Source: Dyella nitratireducens
GTDB taxonomy: Bacteria; Pseudomonadota; Gammaproteobacteria; Xanthomonadales; Rhodanobacteraceae
Assembly: GCF_014642835.1 (NCBI RefSeq)
Contig: NZ_BMJA01000001.1
Coordinates: 564,540 to 628,539 of the forward strand
Direction: 5' to 3'
Length of the DNA: 64,000 nucleotides
Shown here: in pieces, positions 7,568 to 12,422 of the stretch
Layout of the letters: each line of letters opens with the position of its first letter
Numbering within the stretch: position 1 is the first letter of the stretch
Position numbers and translations under genes: made by a program
The notes under the pieces: generated by a model
The model's database searches: none
The model's input: the letters and a program-made list of their open reading frames with translations, nothing else
What the model was told of the DNA's origin: nothing

Positions 7568-8779
7568 TTATTCGGTGCGCGTTGCGACAACCGGCGGCAC
7601 CGCCGCCGCACGAAGCGCTGGAGCAAGCACTGCCAGTTGCCCGAGCAACCAAAGTGCCAGCACGCCGATGGGCAGGTAATACACCGGCAAGCGTGGCAAC
7701 TCGTAGGACAGCATCAACCAAATGTTCAGGCCATACGTGAGCACCATGCCAAGCATCACGCCCATGCTGACGATCAGGAAATTCTCGGTCTGGAAATAGC
7801 GCAGGATGTCGCGCTGGGTTGCGCCCAGCGCACGGCGCACACCGATCTGCTTTCGCCGTTGCGCCACCCAGAAGCTGGCAAGGCCGACGATGCCGAGTGC
7901 CGTGACCAGCAACAACGCGGCGATGACTCCCACAAGGATGCCGGTCATCGCGACGTCCTGTTGAAAGTAGCCGTTGCGCAGTTCACCGATCGTGCGGCTT
8001 TGCTGCTGATCGAGCACGGCTTCGGGAGCGGCTTTGATGGCGGCGGCACGTGCGTCGCGTAGCACGCGCTGCAATGATTCGGGCTGTGCGCGAATCAGGT
8101 AGTTGTCGGCGAAATGTTTGCCTGGAATACCCGGTACAAATACCGACCACTCCCGGGTCGATGGACCGCCCTCGCCGCCACTAGGCCGCGCCAGATGCGC
8201 CACCACGCCCGCAACACGATAGTGGTACCTGTCCATCCAGAATTCGCGGCCAAGCGGATCTTCCCCAGGCCATAGATGTGCAGCCAATGCATGCGTTATC
8301 CATACAGACGCGTCTGCCGGAACAAAGTCATTCAAGGCGCGATAGTCATCCGCCTGAGGTAAGGCGCCTTGTATCAGGTTTAACCCCAATGCCTGGAAGC
8401 TGCCAGGCCCGCCGACATAGAACTCGACCACCCCGCCGGGCTTTTGATTGGCGGCATCCAGATGAATGCCGGCGTCGCCGGCATGCTCCCCAAACGGCAC
8501 CGCGTTGATCACGCTGACCGATTGCACGCCCGGGATTTGCCTCAGTGCGGACAGAACGCGTGCGTTGAGATCGACATCATTGCAGTCGTCACAGTCCAGC
8601 TTGATTTGCGCCAGGGACGCCTCATCCACGCCGCTGTTGATGTGCATCTGGTCGACCCGGCTCGCAATCAGAAAACATGCATTGCATAGCACTGCACAAG
8701 CCAGCGCGATTTCCAGCGCGATAAGCAGGGTAGCCAGGCGATGGCGGCGAAGGGCGGAAAGTATCGGCGCGATATGCAT
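7568..8779 (-). CDS. ABC transporter permease, FtsX/MacB type (second of pair)
   Basis: A 403-residue permease starting MHIAPILSALRRHRLATLLIALEIALA. The ATG at 8779 is chosen over an earlier frame opening because GAGGGG lies nine bases upstream and the start is 10 bp after the upstream permease stop. It has an N-terminal membrane helix, a large periplasmic MacB_PCD-like domain (about 45-260), then three C-terminal helices of the FtsX domain with QRRKQIGVRRALGATQRDILRYF. MacB-type permeases move no substrate through the membrane themselves; they transmit ATP hydrolysis to the periplasm. No ATPase or adaptor gene is beside it. Confidence 0.9.
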   Translation of the reverse strand: MHIAPILSALRRHRLATLLIALEIALACAVLCNACFLIASRVDQMHINSGVDEASLAQIKLDCDDCNDVDLNARVLSALRQIPGVQSVSVINAVPFGEHAGDAGIHLDAANQKPGGVVEFYVGGPGSFQALGLNLIQGALPQADDYRALNDFVPADASVWITHALAAHLWPGEDPLGREFWMDRYHYRVAGVVAHLARPSGGEGGPSTREWSVFVPGIPGKHFADNYLIRAQPESLQRVLRDARAAAIKAAPEAVLDQQQSRTIGELRNGYFQQDVAMTGILVGVIAALLLVTALGIVGLASFWVAQRRKQIGVRRALGATQRDILRYFQTENFLIVSMGVMLGMVLTYGLNIWLMLSYELPRLPVYYLPIGVLALWLLGQLAVLAPALRAAAVPPVVATRTE

Positions 8780-8789
8780 GATCAGCCCC

Positions 8790-10112
8790 TCATAGCGTCT
8801 TGAGCTGCAAGGCTGGTGCCACGCGGCTCGCCCGGAAGGCGGGCAGCAGTCCGGCAAGCAAGGTTGCCGCGACCGCTGCGGTGAACGTCAGCATGAACAT
8901 GGCCAGATCAAGGTGCACCAGATCCGCATAAGCCGTCGGTTGCCGGCGCACGATCCATAACCCGAGCAACGTCAGCAGCCAGCCACCCAAGCCGCCCAGC
9001 AAGCCGACAACAGCAGCCTCCACCAGACACTGCATGAAGACCGCTGCGCGCGTGGCCCCGAGTGCCCGCCGCACACCAATTTCGCCGCCGCGATGCAGGA
9101 ACTTGGCCAACAAAAGCCCGACCGTATTGAACAAACAGATGACCAGAAAGGCGGATGCCAGCCATGTCTGCAACCGCACGTCGCTCGGCACCACATGATT
9201 GAAATCCAGCCATCCCATCAGATTTCTCATGCGGGTATTGCCGGCATGATTGAAACGTCCAAGCGACATTTGCTGGGCGGCATAATCGCCGATGAAGCGC
9301 CGATACGACGACACCTTGGACGCGTCATTCAACTGCACCCACAGGCTCACCCATAAACATGGCCAATTTTGCTGGCTGCCAGTCAGATCGGGGCTATGCC
9401 AGCAGGTGAATTGTTCGAAGTGATTGCGATTGATGTCTTGCCCCGTGGAAAACGGGATCATGATGTCCTCGGGCTTCACGTAGAAGTCCGCGGTATCGCC
9501 ATCCGAAAAGCGCCCGCCGGCCACGTTATAGAACAGCGGTGAGGGACGCCACGGCTTAAGCACACCCACGATACGCAGATCGCTGTCGCGAACCCGCAGG
9601 ATGCGGCCAATGCTATCGGCACCGCCGAAGAGTTTCCTGTTCAAGTCGTCGGAAATCACTACAACCCTCGCCCGACTCGTATCATCCGTTCCACTCCACG
9701 ATTGACCGTACTGGAACGGAACGTCGAACATCGGAAAGAAATCCGCCGTGGTCGCCAACATGCGTATCTTCAGCGCGGGGATATTGGCGTCTGGGGCTAT
9801 GACTCGAATGTCGCCTTTCGCAATGAGCGCTTGGCGATCGGCACGATGAGCAGTCCAGAGATCCACGGCGGAATGAAAATCCATCACGTCGCGAGGTTCG
9901 TGATTATCGCCGTCATTAGGATCGGGGTCGACTTGCGGATAGAAGATGCGCGCGCTCCGCCCCGGAAGCGGATCGCCAGAGAGAATGTGCATCACCGTGA
10001 GCGTGGTCATGCTCGCGCCGATTCCCACAGCAATCGCCAATACCATCAATGCGGTGAGGACTCTGTTGCGTTTCAGGCTTTGAAACGCCAGTAGCAGGTA
10101 GTAACCGAACAT
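8790..10112 (-). CDS. ABC transporter permease, FtsX/MacB type (first of pair)
   Basis: A 440-residue permease starting MFGYYLLLAFQSLKRNRVLTALM, with a first membrane helix at about 18-40, a long periplasmic domain, and a C-terminal FtsX domain with three helices and HRGGEIGVRRALGATRAAVF. It is the promoter-proximal gene of a two-gene operon with the permease at 7568-8779. The two permeases differ in sequence and probably form a heterodimer. In Xanthomonadales such pairs usually sit with a MacA-like adaptor, an ATPase and a sigma-54 activator; none of these is in the window. The leader carries a good sigma-54 promoter match at 10199-10214. Confidence 0.9.
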   Translation of the reverse strand: MFGYYLLLAFQSLKRNRVLTALMVLAIAVGIGASMTTLTVMHILSGDPLPGRSARIFYPQVDPDPNDGDNHEPRDVMDFHSAVDLWTAHRADRQALIAKGDIRVIAPDANIPALKIRMLATTADFFPMFDVPFQYGQSWSGTDDTSRARVVVISDDLNRKLFGGADSIGRILRVRDSDLRIVGVLKPWRPSPLFYNVAGGRFSDGDTADFYVKPEDIMIPFSTGQDINRNHFEQFTCWHSPDLTGSQQNWPCLWVSLWVQLNDASKVSSYRRFIGDYAAQQMSLGRFNHAGNTRMRNLMGWLDFNHVVPSDVRLQTWLASAFLVICLFNTVGLLLAKFLHRGGEIGVRRALGATRAAVFMQCLVEAAVVGLLGGLGGWLLTLLGLWIVRRQPTAYADLVHLDLAMFMLTFTAAVAATLLAGLLPAFRASRVAPALQLKTL

Positions 10113-10198: not shown

Positions 10199-10214
10199 AG
10201 CAAACCATATGCCA
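10199..10214 (-). promoter_or_regulatory. Sigma-54 (-24/-12) promoter match for the permease operon
   Basis: The minus strand reads TGGCATATGGTTTGCT, which fits the RpoN consensus TGGCAC-N5-TTGCW with the invariant GG and GC in the correct phase and only one clear mismatch. Transcription would begin near 10188, leaving a leader of about 75 nt before the ATG at 10112. Confidence 0.65.
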
Positions 10215-10281
10215 CCAAAAAGAAGATCGAGAAGGTGCTTATGCATCAATACGATACATGCAACGTCTCGCTCAGACAGGG

Positions 10282-10314
10282 TGTCCGCGGACATTTACGC
10301 GGACAGGCGGACAC
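10282..10314. promoter_or_regulatory. Candidate enhancer site: palindrome plus GGACA half-sites
   Basis: TGTCCGCGGACA at 10282-10293 is a perfect 12 bp palindrome. It is followed by GGACAGGCGGACA (10301-10313), and another CGGACA lies near 10361-10366. The palindrome is about 95-105 bp upstream of the predicted sigma-54 start site, a normal distance for an enhancer-binding protein. Confidence 0.5.
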
Positions 10315-10439: not shown

Positions 10440-12422
10440 GTGGGTGCGATTTCCATGCTGTTCGGCCAAGTCCGCCCTCTTTTCATAAGCCTTGGTCTGG
10501 CGACCTTGATAACCGTCTCCATCCCGCGCATGGCTACCGCACAGATCGGGTCGGGACCGATGGCCATGCCGCTACCTCCCGCCTTACCTGCTCCGCAAGA
10601 CAGACCTTTCAATGGAGCGATCAGATTGGCCGTCAATGCCGCGGACACCGACCATCAAATTTTTTCCGTTCGCGAGATGATCCCCGTTCAAGAACCCGGT
10701 GACACGGTATTGCTCTACCCGGAATGGGAAACAGCAAGTCATGCACCCACGGCGGGCGTGGCTGAGCTAGCCGGTTTGAGGGTACAAGTCGACAGCACGC
10801 GCTCGGAATGGGTGCGCGATCCGGTGGATATGCATGCCTTCCATATCGACGTGCCCAAAGGCGCTAAATGGATAACGCTGGATTTCCAGTTTCTTGCGCC
10901 AGCCAAGAGTCATTTGCTGCGACCCGATATGGTCGACGTACCTTGGCAACGTGTACTGCTCTACCCTGCCGGTTGGTATGTGCGGGATATTCCCATTGAC
11001 GCCCTGCTCATGCTCCCACACGGTCTTACAGCCTTCACTGCGCTAGCCTTCCAACATGACGGCACTGCACTGGCCTTCCAACATGACGGCGCTGACATGC
11101 TCCGTTTTCAGAGGGTAACGCTTGAGCAATTGGTCGATGCGCCTGTCTATGCCGGTAGATACACCCGCCAGATCGTGCTCAACCAACGTGATGCCAAGGC
11201 GGTGACATTGGATTTACTGGCCGATGCACCGGAAGATATCGCCGTCACTCATGACGACATCGAGCGCATGAAAACGCTGGTCACTCAAAGCCTGAAGACT
11301 TTCGGGGCAGCACCATACCGCCATTACGATGCGATAGTTACGTTGAGCGATGTGCTGTCGCCGGACGGTGGCGGCGGCGGCATCGAGCACTTGGAGGAAG
11401 GTGAAAACAACCTTCCTGCCGCCTACTTCAGCAACGCCACACAACAACTCAATAATCTCGATCTGATCGCGCACGAGTTTGTCCATGCCTGGAACGGACG
11501 ATGGCGCGAACCTGCTGATCTATGGTCGCCCACCTTCAATCAGCCGACCATGGGATCGCTGCTGTGGGTGTATGAGGGTCAAACCGAATTTTGGGGTCGT
11601 GTCCTGGCTGCCCGCGCAGGCCTGCGCGACCGTCAGCAGACCTTGGACAAGCTGGCATTGGACGCCGCCATCGTTGCCAACCGTGACGGTCGAAGCTGGA
11701 AAAATCTGCAGGACAGCACCAATGACGCGATCTATATGGCAGGACATCACGTGTCATGGCGCGATTGGCAGCGCCGAGAAGATTATTATCCGGAAGGGGT
11801 ATTGCTATGGCTGGATGTTGATGCGCGCTTGCGTGAGTTGAGCCATGGCAAGCGTGGTTTGGACGACTTCGCTCGAATCTTCTTCGATGCGCAACAAAAT
11901 CAATCCCGAACCTATACCTTCCAGGATGTCTGCGATGCACTGCACCAAGTCGCGCCAGATGATTGGGCCGCGTTCCTGGATCGCCATCTTCGCAGTCACA
12001 CGGCCGATGACGCGGTCGCTGGGCTGGCACGCGCCGGATGGAAGCTCAGCTATAGCGACGTACCTACCGAAACTTTCCGGCAAGACGAAAAGGAAGCTGG
12101 CGCTATCAACCTCGACTATTCGATCGGACTACAGATCGATACAGATGGCGGCGTTCAATCCGTTCGATGGAATGGCCCGGCATTCTGGGCTGGCTTGTCA
12201 CCCGGCTCACGGGTGATCGACGTGAATGGACAAGCCTTTTCGGATCGTGCGCTTATAGCCGCGGTTCAATCGTCCACATCAGAACCGCTGAATCTGCGCG
12301 TCGATATCAATGGCGACAAACGTGTCGTCAAGATCGACTACCACGGCGGATTGCGCTATCCACATCTTGAGCGTATCGCTGGCACGCCCGACAGGCTGTC
12401 CGCGCTGCTCAACGCGCGATGA
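10440..12422 (+). CDS. M61-family metallopeptidase with C-terminal PDZ domain, secreted
   Basis: A 660-residue protein. The GTG start is chosen because AGAGG lies nine bases upstream; the ATG at 10455 would be too far from it. An N-terminal hydrophobic segment ending in MATAQ looks like a signal peptide. The zinc site is HEFVHAW with His345, Glu346 and His349, and the third ligand is likely Glu379 in VYEGQTEFWG, as in glycyl aminopeptidases of family M61. A PDZ-like domain (IGLQIDTDGGVQSV, GPAFWAGLSPGSRVIDVNG) lies at about 565-635. It contains an in-frame 9-residue tandem duplication (TALAFQHDG twice, 11037-11090). It probably trims peptides in the periplasm. Confidence 0.87.
   Translation: MGAISMLFGQVRPLFISLGLATLITVSIPRMATAQIGSGPMAMPLPPALPAPQDRPFNGAIRLAVNAADTDHQIFSVREMIPVQEPGDTVLLYPEWETASHAPTAGVAELAGLRVQVDSTRSEWVRDPVDMHAFHIDVPKGAKWITLDFQFLAPAKSHLLRPDMVDVPWQRVLLYPAGWYVRDIPIDALLMLPHGLTAFTALAFQHDGTALAFQHDGADMLRFQRVTLEQLVDAPVYAGRYTRQIVLNQRDAKAVTLDLLADAPEDIAVTHDDIERMKTLVTQSLKTFGAAPYRHYDAIVTLSDVLSPDGGGGGIEHLEEGENNLPAAYFSNATQQLNNLDLIAHEFVHAWNGRWREPADLWSPTFNQPTMGSLLWVYEGQTEFWGRVLAARAGLRDRQQTLDKLALDAAIVANRDGRSWKNLQDSTNDAIYMAGHHVSWRDWQRREDYYPEGVLLWLDVDARLRELSHGKRGLDDFARIFFDAQQNQSRTYTFQDVCDALHQVAPDDWAAFLDRHLRSHTADDAVAGLARAGWKLSYSDVPTETFRQDEKEAGAINLDYSIGLQIDTDGGVQSVRWNGPAFWAGLSPGSRVIDVNGQAFSDRALIAAVQSSTSEPLNLRVDINGDKRVVKIDYHGGLRYPHLERIAGTPDRLSALLNAR
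11037..11090 (+). repeat. In-frame 27 bp tandem duplication inside the M61 peptidase gene
   Basis: Two 27 bp units (11037-11063 and 11064-11090) differ at two bases and both encode TALAFQHDG. The near identity suggests a recent replication-slippage duplication in the region between the N-terminal domain and the catalytic domain. Confidence 0.85.

Follow-up and report, generated by a model that had tools for sequence, protein, structure and literature searches.

A candidate sigma-54 promoter with an upstream palindrome precedes an orphan MacB-type permease pair in Dyella nitratireducens and probably belongs to a dedicated NtrC-type regulon

The window analyzed here is a 64-kb stretch of the genome of Dyella nitratireducens. 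Two adjacent permease genes are encoded on its minus strand. The first gene behind the promoter described below encodes permease 1 (8790–10112, 440 aa), with MacB_PCD and FtsX domains, and is followed by the gene for permease 2 (7568–8779), a protein of at most 429 aa with FtsX and MacB_PCD domains. The likely start codon of permease 2 is not the TTG at 8857 but the ATG at 8779, which is preceded by GAGGGG. In both proteins the matches to PF12704 (MacB periplasmic core) and PF02687 (FtsX-like C-terminal part) are above the cut-off. No ABC_tran match was found in either permease, and thus neither carries the fused ATPase of a MacB-type protein. A tblastn search of the 64-kb window (E 1e-3) returned no relatives of the ATPase and adaptor of the main cluster described below. 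The pair is therefore orphan in the sense proposed by an earlier sequence-only reading of this DNA, and the Pfam and NCBIfam matches support its assignment to an envelope ABC system. The divergent neighbor is an M61 peptidase gene on the plus strand (10440–12422).

Upstream of permease 1 an exact match to the sigma-54-type (−24/−12) promoter pattern, TGGCATATGGTTTGCT, is found on the minus strand at 10199–10214, with GG at −24 and GC at −12 separated by 10 bases. The palindrome TGTCCGCGGACA, also an exact match and the presumed site for an enhancer-binding protein (EBP), occupies 10282–10293. Two accessory GGACA half-sites, which read TGTCC in the direction of transcription, follow at 10301–10305 and 10309–10313 (plus strand). 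A weak IHF-like site (10244–10256, plus strand) lies between the presumed activator site and the promoter, with two mismatches to WATCAANNNNTTR, which we take to be the IHF consensus. The gap from the palindrome to TGGC is 67 bp, and the center of the palindrome is thus expected about 100 bp upstream of the start predicted from the −12 element. The palindrome and half-sites fall at the ~80–150 bp expected of the upstream sites of sigma-54 promoters. Each element that the sequence-only reading had placed here, namely the minus-strand RpoN-type promoter and, ~100 bp upstream, the palindrome with its GGACA half-sites, was recovered at these positions.

Neither the promoter pattern nor the palindrome carries much weight when taken singly. 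With up to one mismatch allowed the promoter pattern has 11 matches in the window versus 12.65 expected, and chance is not rejected; two other exact matches (7644–7659 and 8806–8821) lie inside the permease genes. The palindrome is the sole match to TGTCCGCGGACA in the window at up to one mismatch (mean of 0.30 in shuffled sequences, at least one match in 27 of 100 shuffles). Orthologues of permease 1 were found in three other genomes (loci L164, L173, and L185, with 79, 86, and 75% identity, respectively). The palindrome, half-sites, spacing, and promoter are all kept upstream of these three genes, where TGGCATATGGTTTGCT, including the GG and GC elements, aligns at the same position and the TGTCC half-sites are likewise aligned.

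The genome was scanned for the composite of the TGTCCNNGGACA palindrome followed by TGGC-N8-TGC at a gap of 55–80 bp. Five composites were found, with gaps of 67 (the window), 66, 67, 67, and 67 bp, and none with the reversed control; the chance expectation is ~0.04 (from base composition, for a gap range of the same order, 45–75 bp). The palindrome by itself occurs six times in 5.68 Mb (reversed control 0; ~0.6 expected from the base composition of the window). The window site stands above chance because palindrome and promoter are paired at a fixed distance. When a single half-site was combined with the promoter, 27 matches were obtained (control 5), five of which are the known composite sites. 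In two more, L226 and L230, the gap is again 67 bp, the palindrome differs at one position, and a 28-aa ORF is present. The remaining 20 were assessed from their match lines, together with the surroundings for L218 and L225. The genome scan suggested by the sequence-only reading, for the palindrome upstream of TGGC-N8-TTGC promoters, thus yields five exact composites and two with one palindrome mismatch.

The sixth palindrome (L009:8001) precedes pcm-tolC and has no recognizable −24/−12 element at the usual distance. It was initially regarded as a chance match on that account, a reading that was dropped once pcm-tolC was seen downstream, and it is left as a possible degenerate or partial member. 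A copy of TGTCCGGGCGGACA at C1:2175553 (L010) was set aside because no TGGC-N8-TGC is found at the usual distance. Among the six permease-1 genes that lie outside the main cluster, one has the site and the other five do not in the 420 bp upstream.

The composite is widely distributed among relatives. Of the 197 family genomes, 153 have it at a gap of 45–75 bp, with the reversed control in two (G052 and G126); the strict composite is absent from the other 44. In the order it was detected in 83 of 250 genomes (gap of 48–76 bp; control in 5), mostly from families f1 and f2. A survey of the class gave four matches in 274 genomes (control 1): the Dyella genome, a second member of its order, and two genomes of a distant genus, the last two near-identical in sequence and the only ones among the 271 class genomes outside the order. 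On the genome count, the family count, the reversed controls, and the expectation, chance is rejected for the composite.

From the fetched loci, 96 distinct sites with gaps of 50–70 bp were collected; all were chosen to have TGGC-N8-TGC, and up to 40 came from stretches hand-picked from the match list. The gaps fall into two classes, 64–68 bp at 75 sites and 52–56 bp at 21. Two features that the search did not force are nearly invariant: the fifth promoter base is A at 92 sites, and the central CG of the palindrome is present at 95. At least two extra half-sites occur within 40 bp upstream at 77 of the 96 sites versus 0.15 in base shuffles, and an IHF-like match with up to one mismatch is found in the spacer at 46 versus ~3.0, contrasts that overstate independence because the sites are related by descent and partly hand-picked.

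The sequence-only reading had postulated an unseen enhancer-binding activator. RpoN is encoded in the genome (PF04552, E 1.0e-69), and a sigma-54 response regulator was found at the end of an ABC cluster led by the same motif. The cluster spans 27 kb (C1:914573–941568; loci L005, L023, and L021), lies entirely on the minus strand, and is headed by a composite site at C1:941660. It encodes a MacA-type adaptor (C1:941568–940264), a separate ATPase (C1:940261–939515), eight consecutive split MacB/ADOP-like permease pairs (C1:939288–918549), an NtrC-type response regulator designated EBP1 (C1:917515–916160), and, beyond EBP1, a histidine kinase (C1:915943–914573). EBP1 is composed of a receiver, a sigma-54 AAA+ domain with Walker motifs and a GAYTGA loop, and an HTH_8 (Fis-type HTH) domain. 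Ten proteins of the genome match PF00158 (sigma-54 activator), seven of them strongly. Adjoining the macA promoter, an asparagine-synthase-like ORF (507 aa) stands beside a 185-aa ORF (L005:6880–9369, minus strand); these two presumably resemble a lasso-peptide gene pair.

The site and EBP1 are linked across genomes. In 38 of the 47 genomes compared, a site and the EBP1 orthologue share a strand, with the site 8.4–26.0 kb upstream; in the remaining nine the listed sites are on contigs other than that of the EBP1 orthologue. Of 79 loci from named relatives, 49 have a same-strand EBP1 relative (at least 60% identity), 41 have the adaptor, and 34 have both. The strict composite is present in 21 of the 79 and lies just upstream of the adaptor in all 21. 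The annotated start of the adaptor is too early (a GTG, 12 codons before MIRDTS), and the distance of 64–103 bp for these 21 was measured from the first base of the palindrome to the extrapolated start. The strict composite is absent from 20 of the 41 relatives' loci that have the adaptor. Among eight regions from family genomes lacking the strict composite, seven keep arrays of TGTCC half-sites and a TGGCA-type promoter before the adaptor. In the eighth (L208, genome G032), the 19.9 kb that precede the EBP1 orthologue hold no relative of the adaptor, ATPase, or permeases, and the linkage is thus not seen. EBP1-like matches at 1e-60, paralogues included, were obtained in 196 of the 197 family genomes. 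On this sequence evidence, EBP1 is likely the regulator of the window site.

A genome with seven strong EBPs invites the question of whether the site, if sigma-54 dependent, is activated by another of them. The chief candidate is EBP2 (L022:9000–10481, minus strand), also a response regulator, whose recognition helix ITRQALYRR is close to the LSRQALYRR of EBP1 and which lies, beside fused ADOP-type permeases, in a separate MacA-ATPase-permease cluster with a TGGCACGGCGATTGC promoter ahead of it. However, no TGTCC-N0..6-GGACA was found in the 19 kb around EBP2, the dyad upstream of its cluster, TCCGAAAACGGACA, is spaced differently, and the loop of EBP2, GAYTDA, departs from the canonical motif. 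The linkage of the palindrome in those 38 of 47 genomes is to EBP1. Activation by EBP2 or a further EBP is consequently considered unlikely. The EBP2 cluster itself (L022:7676–17408, minus strand) comprises MacA, an ATPase, ADOP permeases, the response-regulator EBP, a kinase, and a TGGC-N8-TGC promoter.

It is less probable still that an ordinary repressor or a sigma-70 activator uses the palindrome as its operator and that the TGGC-N8-TTGC match is incidental. Perfect palindromes are generally typical of repressor operators, and the one-mismatch promoter pattern is no commoner in the window than chance would give. The palindrome, however, does not overlap the promoter but lies ~100 bp ahead of the start, and it keeps two narrow classes of spacing to TGGC-N8-TGC across the 96 sites. 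The half-site arrays and IHF-like spacers at the collected sites, and the linkage to an EBP gene, also argue against an ordinary operator. A role for the site in expression of the divergent M61 peptidase, whether alone or in addition to that of the permeases, is very unlikely: the site does lie in the intergenic region between the peptidase gene and permease 1, but the promoter element is directed towards the permeases, no TGGCAN6TTGCW (up to one mismatch) faces the peptidase in this region, and at other inspected sites most of the genes behind the promoter encode ABC components or small membrane proteins. Control of the permease pair by EBP1 and RpoN is the reading preferred here.

The inspected sites are followed by the adaptor gene, by permease pairs encoded apart from it, by pcm-like genes, by small ORFs, or by one of a few unassigned genes. 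In genus g24 a pcm-like gene is found behind a full composite, and in L109 and L114 a TolC-like gene lies farther downstream (both genes named by resemblance). The small ORFs form a family of 28–73 aa, apparently one-helix membrane proteins, encoded behind an activator site and a sigma-54-type promoter. The 28-aa class is exemplified by MKFETLMLNSFFAACVAICVSTLAAMLV (L008), and its relatives of 51–73 aa have in many cases a C-terminal CALP...C segment. In the Dyella genome, 28-aa genes lie behind composite-type sites at L007:7785–7871 and L008:4137–4223 (both minus strand), and behind the sites with one palindrome mismatch at L226:1367–1453 (minus strand) and L230:1630–1716 (plus strand); a pair of 68- and 58-aa ORFs follows a composite-type site in L006. 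Relatives were found in L121–L132 and L164–L193. The copies differ mostly synonymously; among 11 sequences of the 28-aa class, 390 synonymous versus 87 non-synonymous single-base codon differences were counted (pairwise, uncorrected for descent). The family has no Pfam match at E 1 and no NCBIfam match above the cut-off, the best being that of the L226 protein to YoaI (15.2 bits versus a cut-off of 45). The 28-aa gene of L007 is followed by a gene for a beta-lactamase-fold protein (PF00144).

A conserved stretch, roughly AAATGGC...TATGCGG, is present in the spacer of the promoters of 28-aa and 51-aa ORFs (L007, L008, L226, L230, L122, L171, and others). A loose pattern recovered its first part at 11 of the 13 sites that precede 28-aa ORFs and at both of the two that precede 51-aa ORFs; of the remaining sites, none of the 20 in front of ORFs of 58–73 aa and 1 of 43 others matched. 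By these counts the stretch is not confined to the 28-aa class.

Taken together, the sites, their spacing, conservation, linkage, and gene content, all read from sequence, make it highly probable that the window site is one output promoter of a dedicated EBP1/RpoN sigma-54 regulon for the production of an envelope export system. In the proposed mechanism, the histidine kinase would presumably phosphorylate EBP1, which would bind TGTCCGCGGACA and the neighboring half-sites ~100 bp upstream of the start. The spacer DNA, with the IHF-like sites seen in this class, would bend and allow EBP1 to contact RpoN-RNA polymerase at TGGC-N8-TGC, and the promoter would be opened by ATP hydrolysis. We infer the binding of the site by EBP1, the sigma-54 dependence, and the kinase-EBP1 partnership from these comparisons. 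The products of the regulon would be the MacA-type adaptor, one separate ATPase, the array of split permease pairs, and the tiny membrane proteins. The window pair would constitute a ninth permease pair that would need to borrow, and may share, the ATPase and adaptor of the main cluster. With the palindrome before it, pcm-tolC may also belong to this picture. The system may export peptide-like or other envelope-damaging compounds.

A more speculative extension, which we regard as possible but doubtful, is a modular exporter in which interchangeable split permease pairs share one ATPase, adaptor, and TolC, and in which the one-helix microproteins (28–73 aa, with an MKFETLML-like start) are modulators or cargo. 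If this is true, EBP1 would activate a pump and its microprotein partner jointly, through sites dispersed along the chromosome. For a sigma-54 regulon that extends across two related families, the analysis predicts the DNA site, the activator, and the targets. The shared control would tie ATPase-less permeases to their probable ATPase and adaptor. The analysis also brings to light a family of tiny membrane proteins for which neither Pfam nor NCBIfam gives a match above the cut-off.

Two-component sigma-54 regulons of the NtrC type are exemplified by NtrBC and ZraSR. The proposed regulon resembles these in its response-regulator AAA+ Fis-HTH activator, −24/−12 promoters, sites ~100 bp upstream, and IHF-like spacer sites, whereas EBP1 is far below the cut-off of every named-activator model among the NCBIfam matches listed (25 of 101). 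The palindrome sequence was not found in the open-licence PMC papers searched, and no report of the palindrome and gene set as a regulon was found among the titles and abstract openings of that literature. With MacAB-TolC and DarBCDE the system shares an adaptor that scores above the cut-off of the RND_mfp subfamily model, a general one, and more weakly against MacA and DarC, an ATPase close to DarD, MacB, and LolD, and MacB_PCD-FtsX permeases; the palindrome also stands before a TolC-like (OEP) gene. It differs from MacAB-TolC and darobactin-type exporters in its separate ATPase and in its permeases, which are split pairs in an array of eight, and its matches to the equivalog models for MacA, MacB, and Dar all fall short of the cut-off. 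Permeases 1 and 2 match, in order, the N- and C-terminal halves of ADOP (TIGR03434; 7–400 and 410–803 of 803) but are two genes rather than one protein of ~800 aa, with 149.4 and 166.1 bits versus a cut-off of 622.3.

The regulator of BceAB-type modules is of the OmpR type, whereas EBP1 is NtrC-type with a sigma-54 AAA+ domain and a Fis HTH. As described in passages of PMC5985334, the BceAB permease has ten membrane helices and coevolved with its two-component system, BceRS. An association of permeases with a two-component system is likewise found here, with the difference that these permeases are of ~400–440 aa with a MacB core. The smaCDEF system of Stenotrophomonas (PMC11356428) could be a related pump. 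In a comparative study from 2025 (PMC12316311), COG0577 permeases of Gammaproteobacteria are reported to be enriched for sigma-54 control, and the study presents this as the earliest evidence for the link. Its main text does not contain the words Xanthomonadales, Lysobacter, or Dyella, and its passages on these permeases, unlike the present case, give no such activator site, activator, or regulon. What those passages likewise predict is sigma-54 control of the same class of permease.
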